Positions 1 to 5,563 of a DNA stretch of 64,000 bases are shown here, in pieces. This DNA is from Sulfurospirillum sp. 1612 (GTDB lineage: Bacteria > Campylobacterota > Campylobacteria > Campylobacterales > Sulfurospirillaceae). The notes beneath the pieces are model-generated. The model was not told where the DNA came from, searched no databases, and was given only the letters and a program-made list of their open reading frames with translations. The stretch lies in contig NZ_CP140614.1 in the NCBI RefSeq assembly GCF_036556685.1, forward strand, positions 2,046,001 through 2,110,000. Reading direction: 5' to 3'. The first letter of the stretch is position 1, and each line of letters starts with the position of its first letter. Made by a program: the position numbers and the translations under genes.

Positions 1-966
1 CTCACGTATCACTTCAAAGCACGAAAAGATGGTTTGAGAATTGGACTATTTGATGCTCATAACAAAAAACTCTACTCCAACCTCAAAGATAATGACATCT
101 ACTTTTCAAAAAAAGCCTATCGCAATTATCAGCATGATTACCACATACAAAAGCTCAATCCCCCGATCTTGGGAGTTGCTTATATTGTGGTTGAGAATGA
201 TGGCATTGCCAAAGATCGTCTCAAGCTCATCACCCTCATCATCGCCACCATGCTCGTCTCGATGGTTTTTGTCTCTTTCATTGGATATTGCCTTAGCAAA
301 ATACTCTTACGTCCGGCGCAAAGTCGCATCCAAAAACTCAACCGTTTCATCAAAGACAGCTCCCATGAGCTCAACACCCCCATCTCTGCTCTTTTGATGA
401 GTGCCTCATCACTCAAGCATGCCAAAGAGATGAATCCCCGCGTCATCAATCACATCTCGGTTAGCGCCAAGCTCATCTCTCAGATTTATAACACCCTCTC
501 CTTCATCGCCTTTAATGATGTCGATGAGCGTTTTGATGAGGCTTTTGATCTCAAAGAATTGGTTCAAGAGAGTGTGCGATTTTTTAATGAAATCGCCGCG
601 AGCAAAGGCAATCATATCACCGTCTCTTTGGAGAAGACTGATGTCTTTTTGGATAAGACAAGAATCCAAAAAATCATCAATAACCTCCTCTCTAATGCCA
701 TCAAATACAGTTATGCTAAAAGTGAAATCGAAGTCCTACTCAAAGATTATACTCTGTGTATCATCAACCAGGGAGAAGGCATCAAAAAAGAGGATCAAAA
801 ATCCATCTTCAAACGATTTGAACGTCGTAACAGTAATGAAGAAGGGGGTTTTGGAATTGGCTTAGATATCGTTCAGCGCATCTGCAAAGAGTATGATATA
901 CAAATCAAAGTTGAGTCACAACTCAAAGAGAAAACGACCTTTTTCCTCACCTTTCCACGCCCTTGA
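1..966 (+). CDS. Sensor histidine kinase, C-terminal part (cut by the window edge)
   Basis: The frame is open to the left edge, so the start lies outside; the first TTG at 34 is only an internal codon. Counting from that codon, a membrane segment lies at about residues 63-87, the phosphoacceptor H-box (SSHELNTPISAL) has His111, then an N-box (IINNLLSNAIKYS) and G-boxes (NQGEGI, GFGIGLDIV) form the ATP-binding domain. It should autophosphorylate in response to an extracytoplasmic signal and pass phosphate to a response regulator that probably lies upstream, outside the window. Its last 20 bases overlap the 3' end of the convergent msrQ gene. The signal cannot be inferred. Confidence 0.9.
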   Translation, partial: LTYHFKARKDGLRIGLFDAHNKKLYSNLKDNDIYFSKKAYRNYQHDYHIQKLNPPILGVAYIVVENDGIAKDRLKLITLIIATMLVSMVFVSFIGYCLSKILLRPAQSRIQKLNRFIKDSSHELNTPISALLMSASSLKHAKEMNPRVINHISVSAKLISQIYNTLSFIAFNDVDERFDEAFDLKELVQESVRFFNEIAASKGNHITVSLEKTDVFLDKTRIQKIINNLLSNAIKYSYAKSEIEVLLKDYTLCIINQGEGIKKEDQKSIFKRFERRNSNEEGGFGIGLDIVQRICKEYDIQIKVESQLKEKTTFFLTFPRP

Positions 967-1510
967 TTCTTTTTTGTAAAAGTCGCTTAAAAGGAATCCG
1001 AAATCCTAATAATAAGAGAGCCATGAACATATAAGCATACTCATTAAAACTCAATACTTTCTGCGCCATAGCAGCATGAATGACCACTAAAATCAGCACC
1101 ATATAAACAAATCGGTGCCAGCGATGAAACCGAGCAAAAAGCTTTTTTGAAGAGGTGATACTCATTAATAATAAAACCGCAAAAGCAATCATCCCAAGAT
1201 AAACAAAGGGTTTCTCATAGGTCTCTTTTACCACCAAAGCCAAATCAAACTGCGCATCTAAAATCACAAAATTTAAAAAATGCAACATCACATAAAAAAA
1301 GGTAAACAATCCCAACATCCTACGATATCGCATCACATTCACCCACCGACGCAATAGCGAAGGCAAGAGCGTGAGATTGAGCATACAAATTGATGTCACC
1401 CCGGTGATGGTATAGATGTATTTGATGGGATCAATAGCATGAGGGAGCTTGATGAGTAAAAATCCCAAAGGAGCCAATAAAATAAGCGCTAAAAATCCTT
1501 TTTTTTTCAT
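947..1510 (-). CDS. msrQ: MsrQ (YedZ), heme-binding membrane subunit of the periplasmic methionine sulfoxide reductase
   Basis: A 187-residue membrane protein of the ferric-reductase-like family with about five hydrophobic segments. Candidate heme-ligand histidines are visible in LHFLNF, HRWHRF and VIHAAM. MsrQ passes electrons from the quinone pool or a flavin to MsrP, which repairs oxidised methionine in periplasmic proteins. Its ATG overlaps the msrP stop by 4 bases (1507-1510), so the two are translationally coupled. The 3' end overlaps the convergent kinase gene by 20 bases. The assignment rests on the family features plus the MsrP neighbour. Confidence 0.9.
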
Positions 1511-2472
1511 ATAAATTTTCGCAAATCCATATCTTTGTAAAGGGGTGCCACTTCCTTTTCATAACCATTGAACATCAGAGTCTTTTGTTTCCAAAAACTC
1601 CCCAATTTGCGCTCACTTGCCTGAGACCATCTTGGGTGATCTACTTTGGGATTGACATTGGCATAAAAGCCATACTCTTTAGCATTAATCTGGCGCCACG
1701 TGTTGAGTGGCTCGTTTTCAACCAATTCAATACTCACAATCGATTTGATACTTTTAAAGCCATATTTCCAAGGCACCACCAAACGAATCGGCGCCCCATT
1801 TTGATTGGGTAAAACTTTGCCATACATGCCCACGCCTAAAAGGGTAAGATCATGCATCGCTTCATCCATGCGTAGTCCTTCTACATAAGGATAGGGAATA
1901 TTGCTACCAAAGAGTGAACTGGCTTGGTCTGGGAATTGTTTGGGATCAAAAAGGGTTGTAAATTTAACGTATTTTGCTTTGGAGGTAGGTGCCACTTTTT
2001 TGAGAACATAAGACAAGGGAACACCAATCCATGGCAATACCATCGACCAGCCCTCCACACAGCGAAATCGGTACACGCGCTCCTCTAGGGGATATGATGA
2101 GAGGATCTCCTCCATACTGATGGTCATCGGATGCTCCACTTCACCCGATACGCTAATACTCCAAGGGCTTGGCTTTAGGGTATGCGCCATCTTCGAGGGT
2201 TTGGCTTTATCGAGTGAAAATTCATAAAAATTATTATAGGTGCTGGCTTGATGAAAGGTATTGGTTTCTAAATTTTTGCCATAGTCTGTTTTTTTAAATG
2301 CTAAAATACTTCTTTTTTCTGTCTCAATGGCAGCGAGTTTTTCTGCGATTACGGAGAGTGAAACCGTACTGGCAATACCAAGTTTTAGAAAATGCCTGCG
2401 CGCGTCAAATAAAACCTCAGGGGTAATCTCTTTATCGCTAATATGCCAGCTTGGTTTTTTCAATAGATTCAT
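1507..2472 (-). CDS. msrP: MsrP (YedY), molybdopterin-dependent protein-methionine-sulfoxide reductase
   Basis: 321 residues, the usual size for the family. A twin-arginine type signal is visible near the N-terminus ([11 protein letters not shown] followed by a hydrophobic stretch), fitting Tat export of a folded Mo enzyme to the periplasm. The sulfite-oxidase-fold core includes the Cys of RFRCVEGW, the expected molybdenum ligand, and the signature [13 protein letters not shown]. It reduces free and protein-bound methionine sulfoxide, taking electrons from MsrQ encoded next. The start ATG follows GAGGAG at good spacing, and a TATAAT box lies about 30 bases upstream, so msrPQ forms its own short operon. 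Confidence 0.93.
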
Positions 2473-2503
2473 ATCATACTCCTCATGTTACTAATCTTAA
2501 CAT

Positions 2504-4042: not shown

Positions 4043-4066
4043 CCATAAGAAGGAAAGAGAAAAAAG

Positions 4067-4233
4067 AGGTGAATGTGCGTCCGAGGTGGGCAACTCGGAC
4101 GCGTATTCTAAAAATATATTCGTTCTATAAAAAGGAGGGTTGCGTCTTGGTAAAAGAATTATAAGCTTATAGATTAAATACTGTGTTAATTTAATATAAA
4201 CAAATAGTAAATAAGATGATTTTTCTCTTATTT
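4067..4233 (+). repeat. 167-bp structured repeat, copy 1
   Basis: First of three direct copies. Order within the unit: a GC-rich hairpin (stem AATGTGCGTCCGAG, loop GTGGGCAA, 14 pairs counting two G-T pairs), an AT-rich stretch with TATATT, a strong Shine-Dalgarno-like AAGGAGG, the palindrome TATAAGCTTATA, and an AT hairpin AAATAAGA/TCTTATTT at the end. About 15 differences from copy 2, ten of them in one 22-base block before the end hairpin. It lies upstream of the divergent peptide-binding protein gene. No terminal inverted repeats or target duplication were seen. Confidence 0.9.
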
Positions 4234-4305
4234 TGTGAATTTTTTACTCATTTGTCATAAAATTTCTGAATCTTGTCGGTCAAAGTGTGATAATAAAAAA
4301 AGGGA

Positions 4306-4472
4306 GGGTGAATTTGCGTCCGAGGTGGGCAACTCGGACGCGCATTCTAAAAATATATTCGTTCTATAAAAAGGAGGGTTGCGTCTTGGTAGGAGAATTA
4401 TAAGCTTATAGATTAAATGTGACATTAACCTATTATAAATAAATAGTAAATAAGATGATTTTTCTCTTATTT
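4306..4472 (+). repeat. 167-bp structured repeat, copy 2
   Basis: Same length and element order as copy 1, 72 bases downstream of it. The lower stem of the GC hairpin has one T/C mismatch. It differs from copy 3 at about four positions only, so copies 2 and 3 are the closest pair and bracket the DUF234 gene as direct repeats. Together with copy 1 and the spacer it fills most of the gene-free stretch 4031-4527. The spacer 4234-4305 is AT-rich and shows nothing recognisable. Confidence 0.9.
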
Positions 4473-4494
4473 ACTAGATTTTTCTTTCCTATGC

Positions 4495-4500
4495 TATAAT
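4495..4500 (+). promoter_or_regulatory. -10 box of the DUF234 gene
   Basis: Perfect TATAAT with an upstream TGC (extended -10). Transcription would begin near 4507, followed by AAAGGA at 4516-4521. This puts the start of translation near 4525-4534, well before the first TTG of the frame at 4678. Confidence 0.6.
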
Positions 4501-4527
4501 CTCACAGAAATATTCAAAGGATTTATT

Positions 4528-5391
4528 ATCATCATACATCATACACAATCATTTATAGAACAGTTTGAGATTTTTTGTTCTCGTAACCATCCTAAAAATA
4601 TCGAAGAGGCGATAGCCTACTTTACTATTTTTGGTGGACTTGATATCAAAATCGATTGCAATCAGCCTCTTGAAGCATTGATTGAAAAACATATTTTAAA
4701 TCGATACAAATATCTAAGAAACGATATTGCCCTCTTAACCACAGGCGATGAATTGTTTCATTTGATTCTTACAGGTGCCGCGTTGGGAGATCGCAGGACC
4801 AACTCTTCATTTAAACGCGCCAAAGTATCTTTTGATAAGGGGATGGATTGTCTCGATGAATTATGTGATTTAGACGTCATAAAACTCGAATCGACTTCAG
4901 CATCTTGCGATATGTCTGATAAAATCTTATTTATGGCACCTTTTTTGAGATTCTGGTTTGCGTTTATCTCTCCTATTTTCAAAGGAATCAAAAACGGTGA
5001 TTATACGGAATTTTTTGAAAAGTTTAAAAATTTAAAATCTGAATTTTCCTACTTGACCTTTGAGCAACTCTCTCATGAATATATCAAACGCTCCTTTCAA
5101 GAAGATAAAATCTACAATATCAACCGATATTGGGATGATGATCGCGACATCAATATCGTCGCAAAAACAAAATCAGGACAAATCATCGCAGGTCTTTGTA
5201 AATACACGCAAACAAAAGTCAAAAAAAGTGACCTCACAAAACTAAAAGTTGATTGTGATGCCGCACACATCAAACCTGATATCCTTGTCATGTTTTCAAA
5301 AAACGGTTTTACGAGTGAATTAAAGTCAATGAAAAGTAATAATTTGAGACTTTTTAGTGTGAGAAATTTAAAAATTTTATTGGAAAAATAA
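4528..5391 (+). CDS. DUF234-type protein (C-terminal domain family of archaeal-type ATPases), non-standard start codon
   Basis: I recognise this as the DUF234 family: a helical part with TIFGGLDIKID, LGDRRTNSSFKRAKV and FLRFWFAFISPIFKGI, then a nuclease-like C-terminal part (DINIVAKTKSGQIIAGLCKY). No ATPase domain is present, so it is a stand-alone DUF234 protein of unknown function. The conserved sequence begins well before the first TTG (4678): the frame is open from 4459 and HTQSFIEQF lies at about 4540-4570. There is no ATG, GTG or TTG there, only ATT/ATC/ATC/ATA at 4525-4536 after AAAGGA. I place the start at ATC 4528 with low certainty; a decayed start codon is the alternative. It lies between repeat copies 2 and 3. 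Confidence 0.7.
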   Translation: MIIHHTQSFIEQFEIFCSRNHPKNIEEAIAYFTIFGGLDIKIDCNQPLEALIEKHILNRYKYLRNDIALLTTGDELFHLILTGAALGDRRTNSSFKRAKVSFDKGMDCLDELCDLDVIKLESTSASCDMSDKILFMAPFLRFWFAFISPIFKGIKNGDYTEFFEKFKNLKSEFSYLTFEQLSHEYIKRSFQEDKIYNINRYWDDDRDINIVAKTKSGQIIAGLCKYTQTKVKKSDLTKLKVDCDAAHIKPDILVMFSKNGFTSELKSMKSNNLRLFSVRNLKILLEK

Positions 5392-5396
5392 AAAGA

Positions 5397-5563
5397 AGGT
5401 GAATGTGCGTCCGAGGTGGGCAACTCGGACGTGCATTCTAAAAATATATTCGTTCTATAAAAAGGAGGGTTGCGTCTTGGTAGGAGAATTATAAGCTTAT
5501 AGATTAAATGTGACATTAACCTATTATAAATAAATAGTAAATTAGATGATTTTTCTCTTATTT
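5397..5563 (+). repeat. 167-bp structured repeat, copy 3
   Basis: Begins five bases after the DUF234 stop codon and runs into the stop codon of the convergent PAS gene (5558-5560). In the GC hairpin the copy-1 G-T pair has become G-C and a neighbouring G-C has become G-T, so the plus-strand RNA stem is kept. The end hairpin has one mismatch (AAATTAGA). About four differences from copy 2. Confidence 0.9.

Follow-up and report, generated by a model that had tools for sequence, protein, structure and literature searches.

Three direct repeats of 167 nucleotides (nt) in the genome of Sulfurospirillum sp. 1612 are examined here, within a stretch of 64,000 nt (contig NZ_CP140614.1, positions 2,046,001 to 2,110,000; to be referred to as the window). 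Each repeat is probably a minus-strand gene for a trans-acting small RNA (sRNA) of about 90-97 nt that carries an anti-Shine-Dalgarno (anti-SD) sequence, is controlled by a response regulator and blocks translation initiation without Hfq. The assignment of an sRNA gene, with its strand, promoter and terminator, is well supported by sequence comparison, and we infer its targets, its regulator and its expression.

The three copies (window 4067-4233, 4306-4472 and 5397-5563) are equal in length, and each carries a GC hairpin, the motif AAGGAGG, the palindrome TATAAGCTTATA and an AT hairpin at its end, as the original prediction had described. Compared without gaps, copies 1 and 2 differ at 15 positions, copies 2 and 3 at 4, and copies 1 and 3 at 15, with the differences concentrated in a block at positions 113-127, again exactly as noted before. 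The similarity runs about 11 nt beyond the 5' edge, giving 179 nt altogether, and a fourth copy is absent from the 2.38-Mb one-contig genome. The repeat is not a product of chance, since homologues with E values down to 4e-38 are located at syntenic places in sister genomes.

On the minus strand, the elements are arranged in the order TTTAC-N6-TTTAT-N6-(G/A)TTAA-N6-(G/A)TTTAA-N9/10-TATACT/TATAAT-N6-ACCAAGAC...(A)CCUCCUUUUU...GC hairpin (loop UGCCC)-UUUUUUU. The four TTTA-type (RTTWAN) boxes are spaced 11 bp apart, and the last is about 9 nt ahead of the -10 box. The anti-SD core found in the 3' tail of 16S rRNA is included in CCUCCUUUUU. AAGGAGG is the complement of this anti-SD sequence, and TATAAGCTTATA overlaps the -10 region. 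The predicted sRNA starts (window 4151, 4390 and 5481) lie at a fixed distance past the -10 box. Conservation in the alignment spans the region from the GC hairpin to about 60 nt past AAGGAGG, and on the other side it stops soon after the A-run. The features are listed below, with scores from a covariance model of the RNA part only (R1), which was built from alignment A2 and leaves out the promoter.

4060..4151, minus strand: predicted transcript of sRNA copy 1, start 4151, T-run at about 4065-4060 (R1 97.1 bits; fold)
4295..4390, minus strand: predicted transcript of sRNA copy 2, start 4390, T7 at 4301-4295 (R1 91.9 bits; fold)
5385..5481, minus strand: predicted transcript of sRNA copy 3, start 5481 (R1 89.0 bits; fold)
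4158..4163, minus strand: -10 box TATAAT, copy 1 (sequence; kept in 98 of 100 copies)
4397..4402, minus strand: -10 box TATAAT, copy 2 (sequence; family conservation)
5488..5493, minus strand: -10 box TATAAT, copy 3 (sequence; family conservation)
4174..4212, minus strand: four TTTA-type boxes with 11-bp spacing, copy 1 (0-mismatch pattern match)
4413..4451, minus strand: four TTTA-type boxes, copy 2 (0-mismatch pattern match)
5504..5542, minus strand: four TTTA-type boxes, copy 3 (0-mismatch pattern match)
4129..4139, minus strand: anti-SD stretch CCCUCCUUUUU, copy 1 (CCTCCTTT in 98 of 102 copies)
4368..4378, minus strand: anti-SD stretch, copy 2 (family conservation)
5459..5469, minus strand: anti-SD stretch, copy 3 (family conservation)
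4077..4102, minus strand: terminator hairpin with UGCCC loop, copy 1 (covariation)
4316..4341, minus strand: terminator hairpin, copy 2 (covariation)
5407..5432, minus strand: terminator hairpin, copy 3 (covariation)

To gather relatives, the unit was compared by BLASTN with 44 genomes from its own family, the loci were fetched and the profile was iterated, giving 39 real copies. The matches in sister genomes are often paired, flanking the same genes at a distance of about 2.2 kb from each other. A larger alignment (A3) contains 104 rows, of which two are reverse-strand echoes of the palindrome, leaving 102 real copies. The hairpin covaries strongly in these copies. In the ten-pair stem, 98.5% of the cells are paired and 279 cells are changed on both sides. 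None of 500 shuffles, which ignore relatedness, reaches the observed stem pairing or the observed number of double changes, and sliding the stem partner by 1-3 columns reduces the pairing to at most 45%. A3 was fitted to the model structure and is hence biased in its favor; A2, which was not fitted, leads to the same conclusion on covariation.

The promoter provides a check from outside the model, R1 having none. A -10 box of the form TATA[ACT]T is found in 98 of 100 copies, 92 of them at one exact distance, compared to 16 of 392 control windows (4%). Zero-mismatch matches to the four boxes, in eight genomes, are all located at sRNA genes except for one low-complexity match in G035; G008 has none. 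The loop motif TGCCC is kept in 98 of the 102 copies, and T5 is present inside the tail in 96. The copies are intergenic, and the genes flanking them occur in all orientations. This comparison shows a predicted stand-alone gene with a set promoter geometry, a conserved 5' part (ACCAAGAC...CCUCCUUUUU), an exposed anti-SD stretch, a conserved loop and a terminator. The original suggestion of a multicopy small RNA is supported.

Three results weigh against an independent, mRNA-pairing sRNA. A scan with a terminator consensus found no terminator at the three copies in the window, and there the T-run is shifted away from the extended stem, by 6-8 nt from the hairpin in the copies of this genome. 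In 75 of 95 cases the 3' neighbour shares the strand of the sRNA gene, a count that includes many samplings of the same locus in several genomes, and this would also suit a leader. Finally, target duplexes computed for the 72 genes of the window were no better than those of a shuffled seed (mean -11.8 versus -12.5 kcal/mol). This result counts against any claim about particular targets, and the anti-SD role is argued from conservation.

The segment CACCUCUUUUUU, CACCCUCCCUUUUUUU or CACCUUCUUUUU follows the hairpin at window 4060-4073, 4295-4312 and 5390-5403. It is possibly a second anti-SD-like segment, which is peculiar to this genome and shifts the T-run away from the hairpin.

In a cis-acting leader, the promoter would drive the 3' gene and the hairpin would be an attenuator that decides on read-through. 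The same-strand neighbours are in its favor, as is the hairpin with its T-run, an intrinsic terminator. However, 20 of the 95 copies face the 3' end of a convergent gene, copy 3 of the window among these. The downstream genes are mutually unrelated, neither an antiterminator nor an alternative pairing was observed, and oppA seems to possess a -10 box of its own, TATAAT, past the sRNA terminator. A leader is an unlikely account of the family. The idea of a transcript-end element, raised in the original prediction, holds only in the trivial sense that the sRNA has its own terminator.

Returning to the trans-acting sRNA, an OmpR/PhoB-type response regulator, with two dimers on the direct repeats, would switch on all copies, and these would supply dose or redundancy. 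The exposed CCUCCUUUUU would pair with ribosome-binding sites that are rich in purines, on selected mRNAs. Its specificity would come from the CAAGAC and UGCCC segments beside it, and translation initiation would be blocked at the Shine-Dalgarno sites independently of Hfq. No Hfq was found in any of the 44 family genomes, in a search whose controls matched. By folding, CCUCC can occupy the loop of a weak 5' hairpin in some g3/g4/g5 copies, which may be a further way to present the seed in those copies.

We infer OmpR/PhoB-type control from the boxes, since direct repeats spaced by one helical turn immediately ahead of a -10 box are typical of that class. Within this class, direct repeats near promoters are bound by CiaR (PMC3091779) and HP1043 (PMC5253667). 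There are 28 matches to OmpR-type DNA-binding domains in the genome. In the region at window 1-2487, a sensor kinase is encoded at window 1-966, and an OmpR-type regulator lies just outside the window on its upstream side (G000 2045595-2045807). The genes beside them resemble MsrPQ. This kinase/regulator pair, about 2 kb from the sRNA locus, would be an HprRS-like arrangement and is a candidate for the regulator.

Five perfect AAAAGGAGG-N4-9-ATG sites are present in this genome, one of them at a response-regulator gene (MDxNxLxDCVxLYVED...). The gene has such a perfect site in two genera (L263, from this genome, and L260, from G022), which is suggestive only of a candidate target.

The sRNA could instead act mainly through a protein, as a sponge or a ribosome-associated RNA. 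The duplex energies in the window would fit this possibility, and CCUCCUUU resembles the 16S 3' tail and might titrate a ribosome-associated factor. On the other hand, a single-stranded CCUCC with conserved flanks is a hallmark of pairing sRNAs (csRNA, LhrC), and nothing points to a particular protein. We consider this mode of action improbable.

The family resembles the csRNAs of streptococci, which belong to the CiaRH regulon and have TTTAAG-N5-TTTAAG boxes about 10 nt before TATAAT (PMC3091779). Both groups have several copies per genome, direct-repeat boxes, an unpaired anti-SD sequence and a terminator, and both include a plasmid-borne copy (pSt0 for the csRNAs). In comparison, the present family is in a different phylum and has four RTTWAN boxes instead of two, without the conserved G. 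It thus falls outside the CiaR-dependent definition of csRNAs (an invariant-G TTTAAG-N5-TTTAAG box and control by CiaR), and the anti-start-codon stretch of csRNAs is not established in it. LhrC1-5 of Listeria (PMC4132741) are also multicopy; they are controlled by a two-component system, and their C-rich UCCC motifs cover Shine-Dalgarno sequences. LhrC differs in having three CU-rich sites and experimentally proven targets, and no homology was seen in a comparison through Rfam gathering-threshold matches alone.

Among sRNAs of the Campylobacterota, CJnc230/FlmE of Campylobacter jejuni (PMC11187230) has a putative anti-SD motif but differs in place and promoter. RepG of Helicobacter pylori (PMC8295292) is also trans-acting but targets G-repeats rather than Shine-Dalgarno sites; its homology was compared via Rfam alone. 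The sites of HP1043/HsrA, an OmpR/PhoB-type regulator, are TTTAAG direct repeats at promoters with centres 11 bp apart (PMC5253667), whereas the repeats here are four and degenerate. As a multicopy anti-SD sRNA that is apparently driven by a response regulator, the family would be a clear example of convergence with the csRNAs of streptococci and the LhrC sRNAs of Listeria.

Matches to R1 are found in 41 of 44 Sulfurospirillaceae-level genomes, with 1-8 copies each. In a set of 397 genomes, R1 has matches in 23 and a model that includes the promoter (R2) in 100; a limit to Sulfurospirillaceae, as R1 had indicated, was overturned by this result. R2 adds a second family (f3), represented by about 76 genomes that have 1-3 copies each, and one further weak match each in f5 and f7. 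The training of R2 included one f3 sequence (G361), which makes that match circular and leaves the others unaffected.

The order of genes is rplM-rpsI-(DUF523)-sRNA-oppA in Sulfurospirillaceae, and rplM-rpsI-sRNA-cadF-like, or sRNA beside moaC, in f3. The names rplM, rpsI, cadF-like and moaC for the f3 neighbours are putative and were given from sequence motifs. From its gene content, f3 is apparently Campylobacteraceae. The rpsI-side copy looks ancestral, because the rpsI neighbourhood is common to both groups. The non-coding stretch ahead of cadF is about 250 bp in C. lari and about 150 bp in C. jejuni and C. coli (PMC2751783). The shorter stretch fits a loss of the sRNA in C. jejuni, and this loss could explain why sRNA surveys of C. 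jejuni missed the family. The wider proposal of an ancient sRNA throughout the Campylobacterales, with a copy of the anti-SD core of the 16S rRNA tail, simultaneous induction of several loci by one dedicated response regulator through a near-private four-box promoter and a role as a broad, global brake on translation initiation without Hfq, is doubtful.

A plasmid copy is located on pSDCE1 of Sulfurospirillum diekertiae (L169; NZ_CP059996.1 32449-32644), between hicAB and parA. BLASTN of plasmids and phages with the window unit gave no real match, and a pattern match in a viral contig (L113) is due to chance, having neither promoter nor hairpin. Most pattern matches in bins outside the Campylobacterota have no R2 match. 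Two of them (L067 and L080) match strongly; their contigs bear the labels Bacteroidia and Proteobacteria and are probably Sulfurospirillum contigs that were mis-binned in metagenome-assembled genomes. In a decayed copy (L333 2906-3024, in G013), the four boxes and ACAAGCAAGACAAATATCTCCTTTTT are recognisable, and the -10 box and hairpin are damaged.

Copies 2 and 3 of the window are 97% identical across body and promoter, and sister-species copies at the same positions are 70-78% identical to window copies 1 and 3. An outer stem (GAAU/AUUC) together with AAGCTTATAATTC is common to the three window copies and was seen in no other copy. Copies within one genome are on average slightly more similar than copies at the same position, clearly so for the window, which is consistent with conversion without proving it. 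The original proposal that copies 2 and 3 were recently duplicated or converted is supported, and duplication with gene conversion would be the simplest account of the window copies.

The proposal of a non-autonomous mobile unit, such as a miniature inverted-repeat transposable element (MITE), an IS200/IS605 end or an integron attC-like site, is not supported. The several copies, their position around an accessory gene and the plasmid copy would suit such an element. Nevertheless, syntenic intergenic positions are kept across genera and families, compensatory changes keep the stem, the promoter geometry is fixed, and this genome has three copies only. Integron attC sites and IS200/IS605 ends, considered from the layout of a hairpin with a gene, were rejected on account of the synteny and of the promoter on the minus strand. 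The copies showed no transposon features (no empty-site comparison was made). We regard a mobile element as very unlikely.

An RNA from the plus strand, the strand favored in the original prediction, such as a decoy bearing GGA or a short peptide encoded after the strong AAGGAGG, is hardly credible: AAGGAGG is followed by an in-phase TTG in the window and the outer-stem wobbles favor plus in its three copies, but the plus strand has no conserved promoter or T-run (the minus strand carries the promoter, the anti-SD and the T-run terminator), the reading frame is not kept, with the stop absent or shifted in other copies, and the conserved 'TATA' beyond the frame is the minus-strand -10 box. The small peptide was rejected on its frame. 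The G-U argument behind that choice of strand holds only for the outer extension of the stem, which is peculiar to this genome, but over the family 25 G-U cells favor minus and 6 plus, 4 of these 6 exceptions coming from this window.

Copies 1 and 2 are in tandem, with oppA on one side and a DUF234 gene (window 4516-5391, plus strand) on the other, and the end of sRNA copy 3 meets the stop codon of this gene. In sister genomes, a Na/Ca-exchanger gene, missing here, lies between DUF234 and the last sRNA copy. The DUF234 gene has no well placed ATG. In 7 of 7 genomes compared (the window gene and homologues in L034, L038, L040, L041, L049 and L227), ATC, ATA or ATT is found 6 nt after AAAGGA (or GAGGGA/GAAGGA) at its start, and in 2 of the 7 a TTG lies two codons beyond. 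Several homologues from other families have an ATG close by. It is possible that the gene uses a conserved AUH start codon, sensitive to initiation factor 3 (IF3).

Rfam 15 has no family above the gathering threshold for the window or the f3 loci, and no relevant match below it for the window; the earlier statement that no named family matches thus holds for Rfam 15. The family was not found in the literature searched, supplementary tables and subscription papers aside, and an unnamed RNA-seq candidate may exist. The sRNA family is new and is not a mobile element, while its kind, a multicopy anti-SD sRNA, is already known. The same literature yielded no regulatory sRNA from Sulfurospirillum. 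The sRNAs of C. jejuni described so far are reported to be conserved over short distances (PMC3656092). The family presented here spans two bacterial families with a defined promoter, seed and terminator, and sRNA control without Hfq in a harmless laboratory organism is therefore directly testable.
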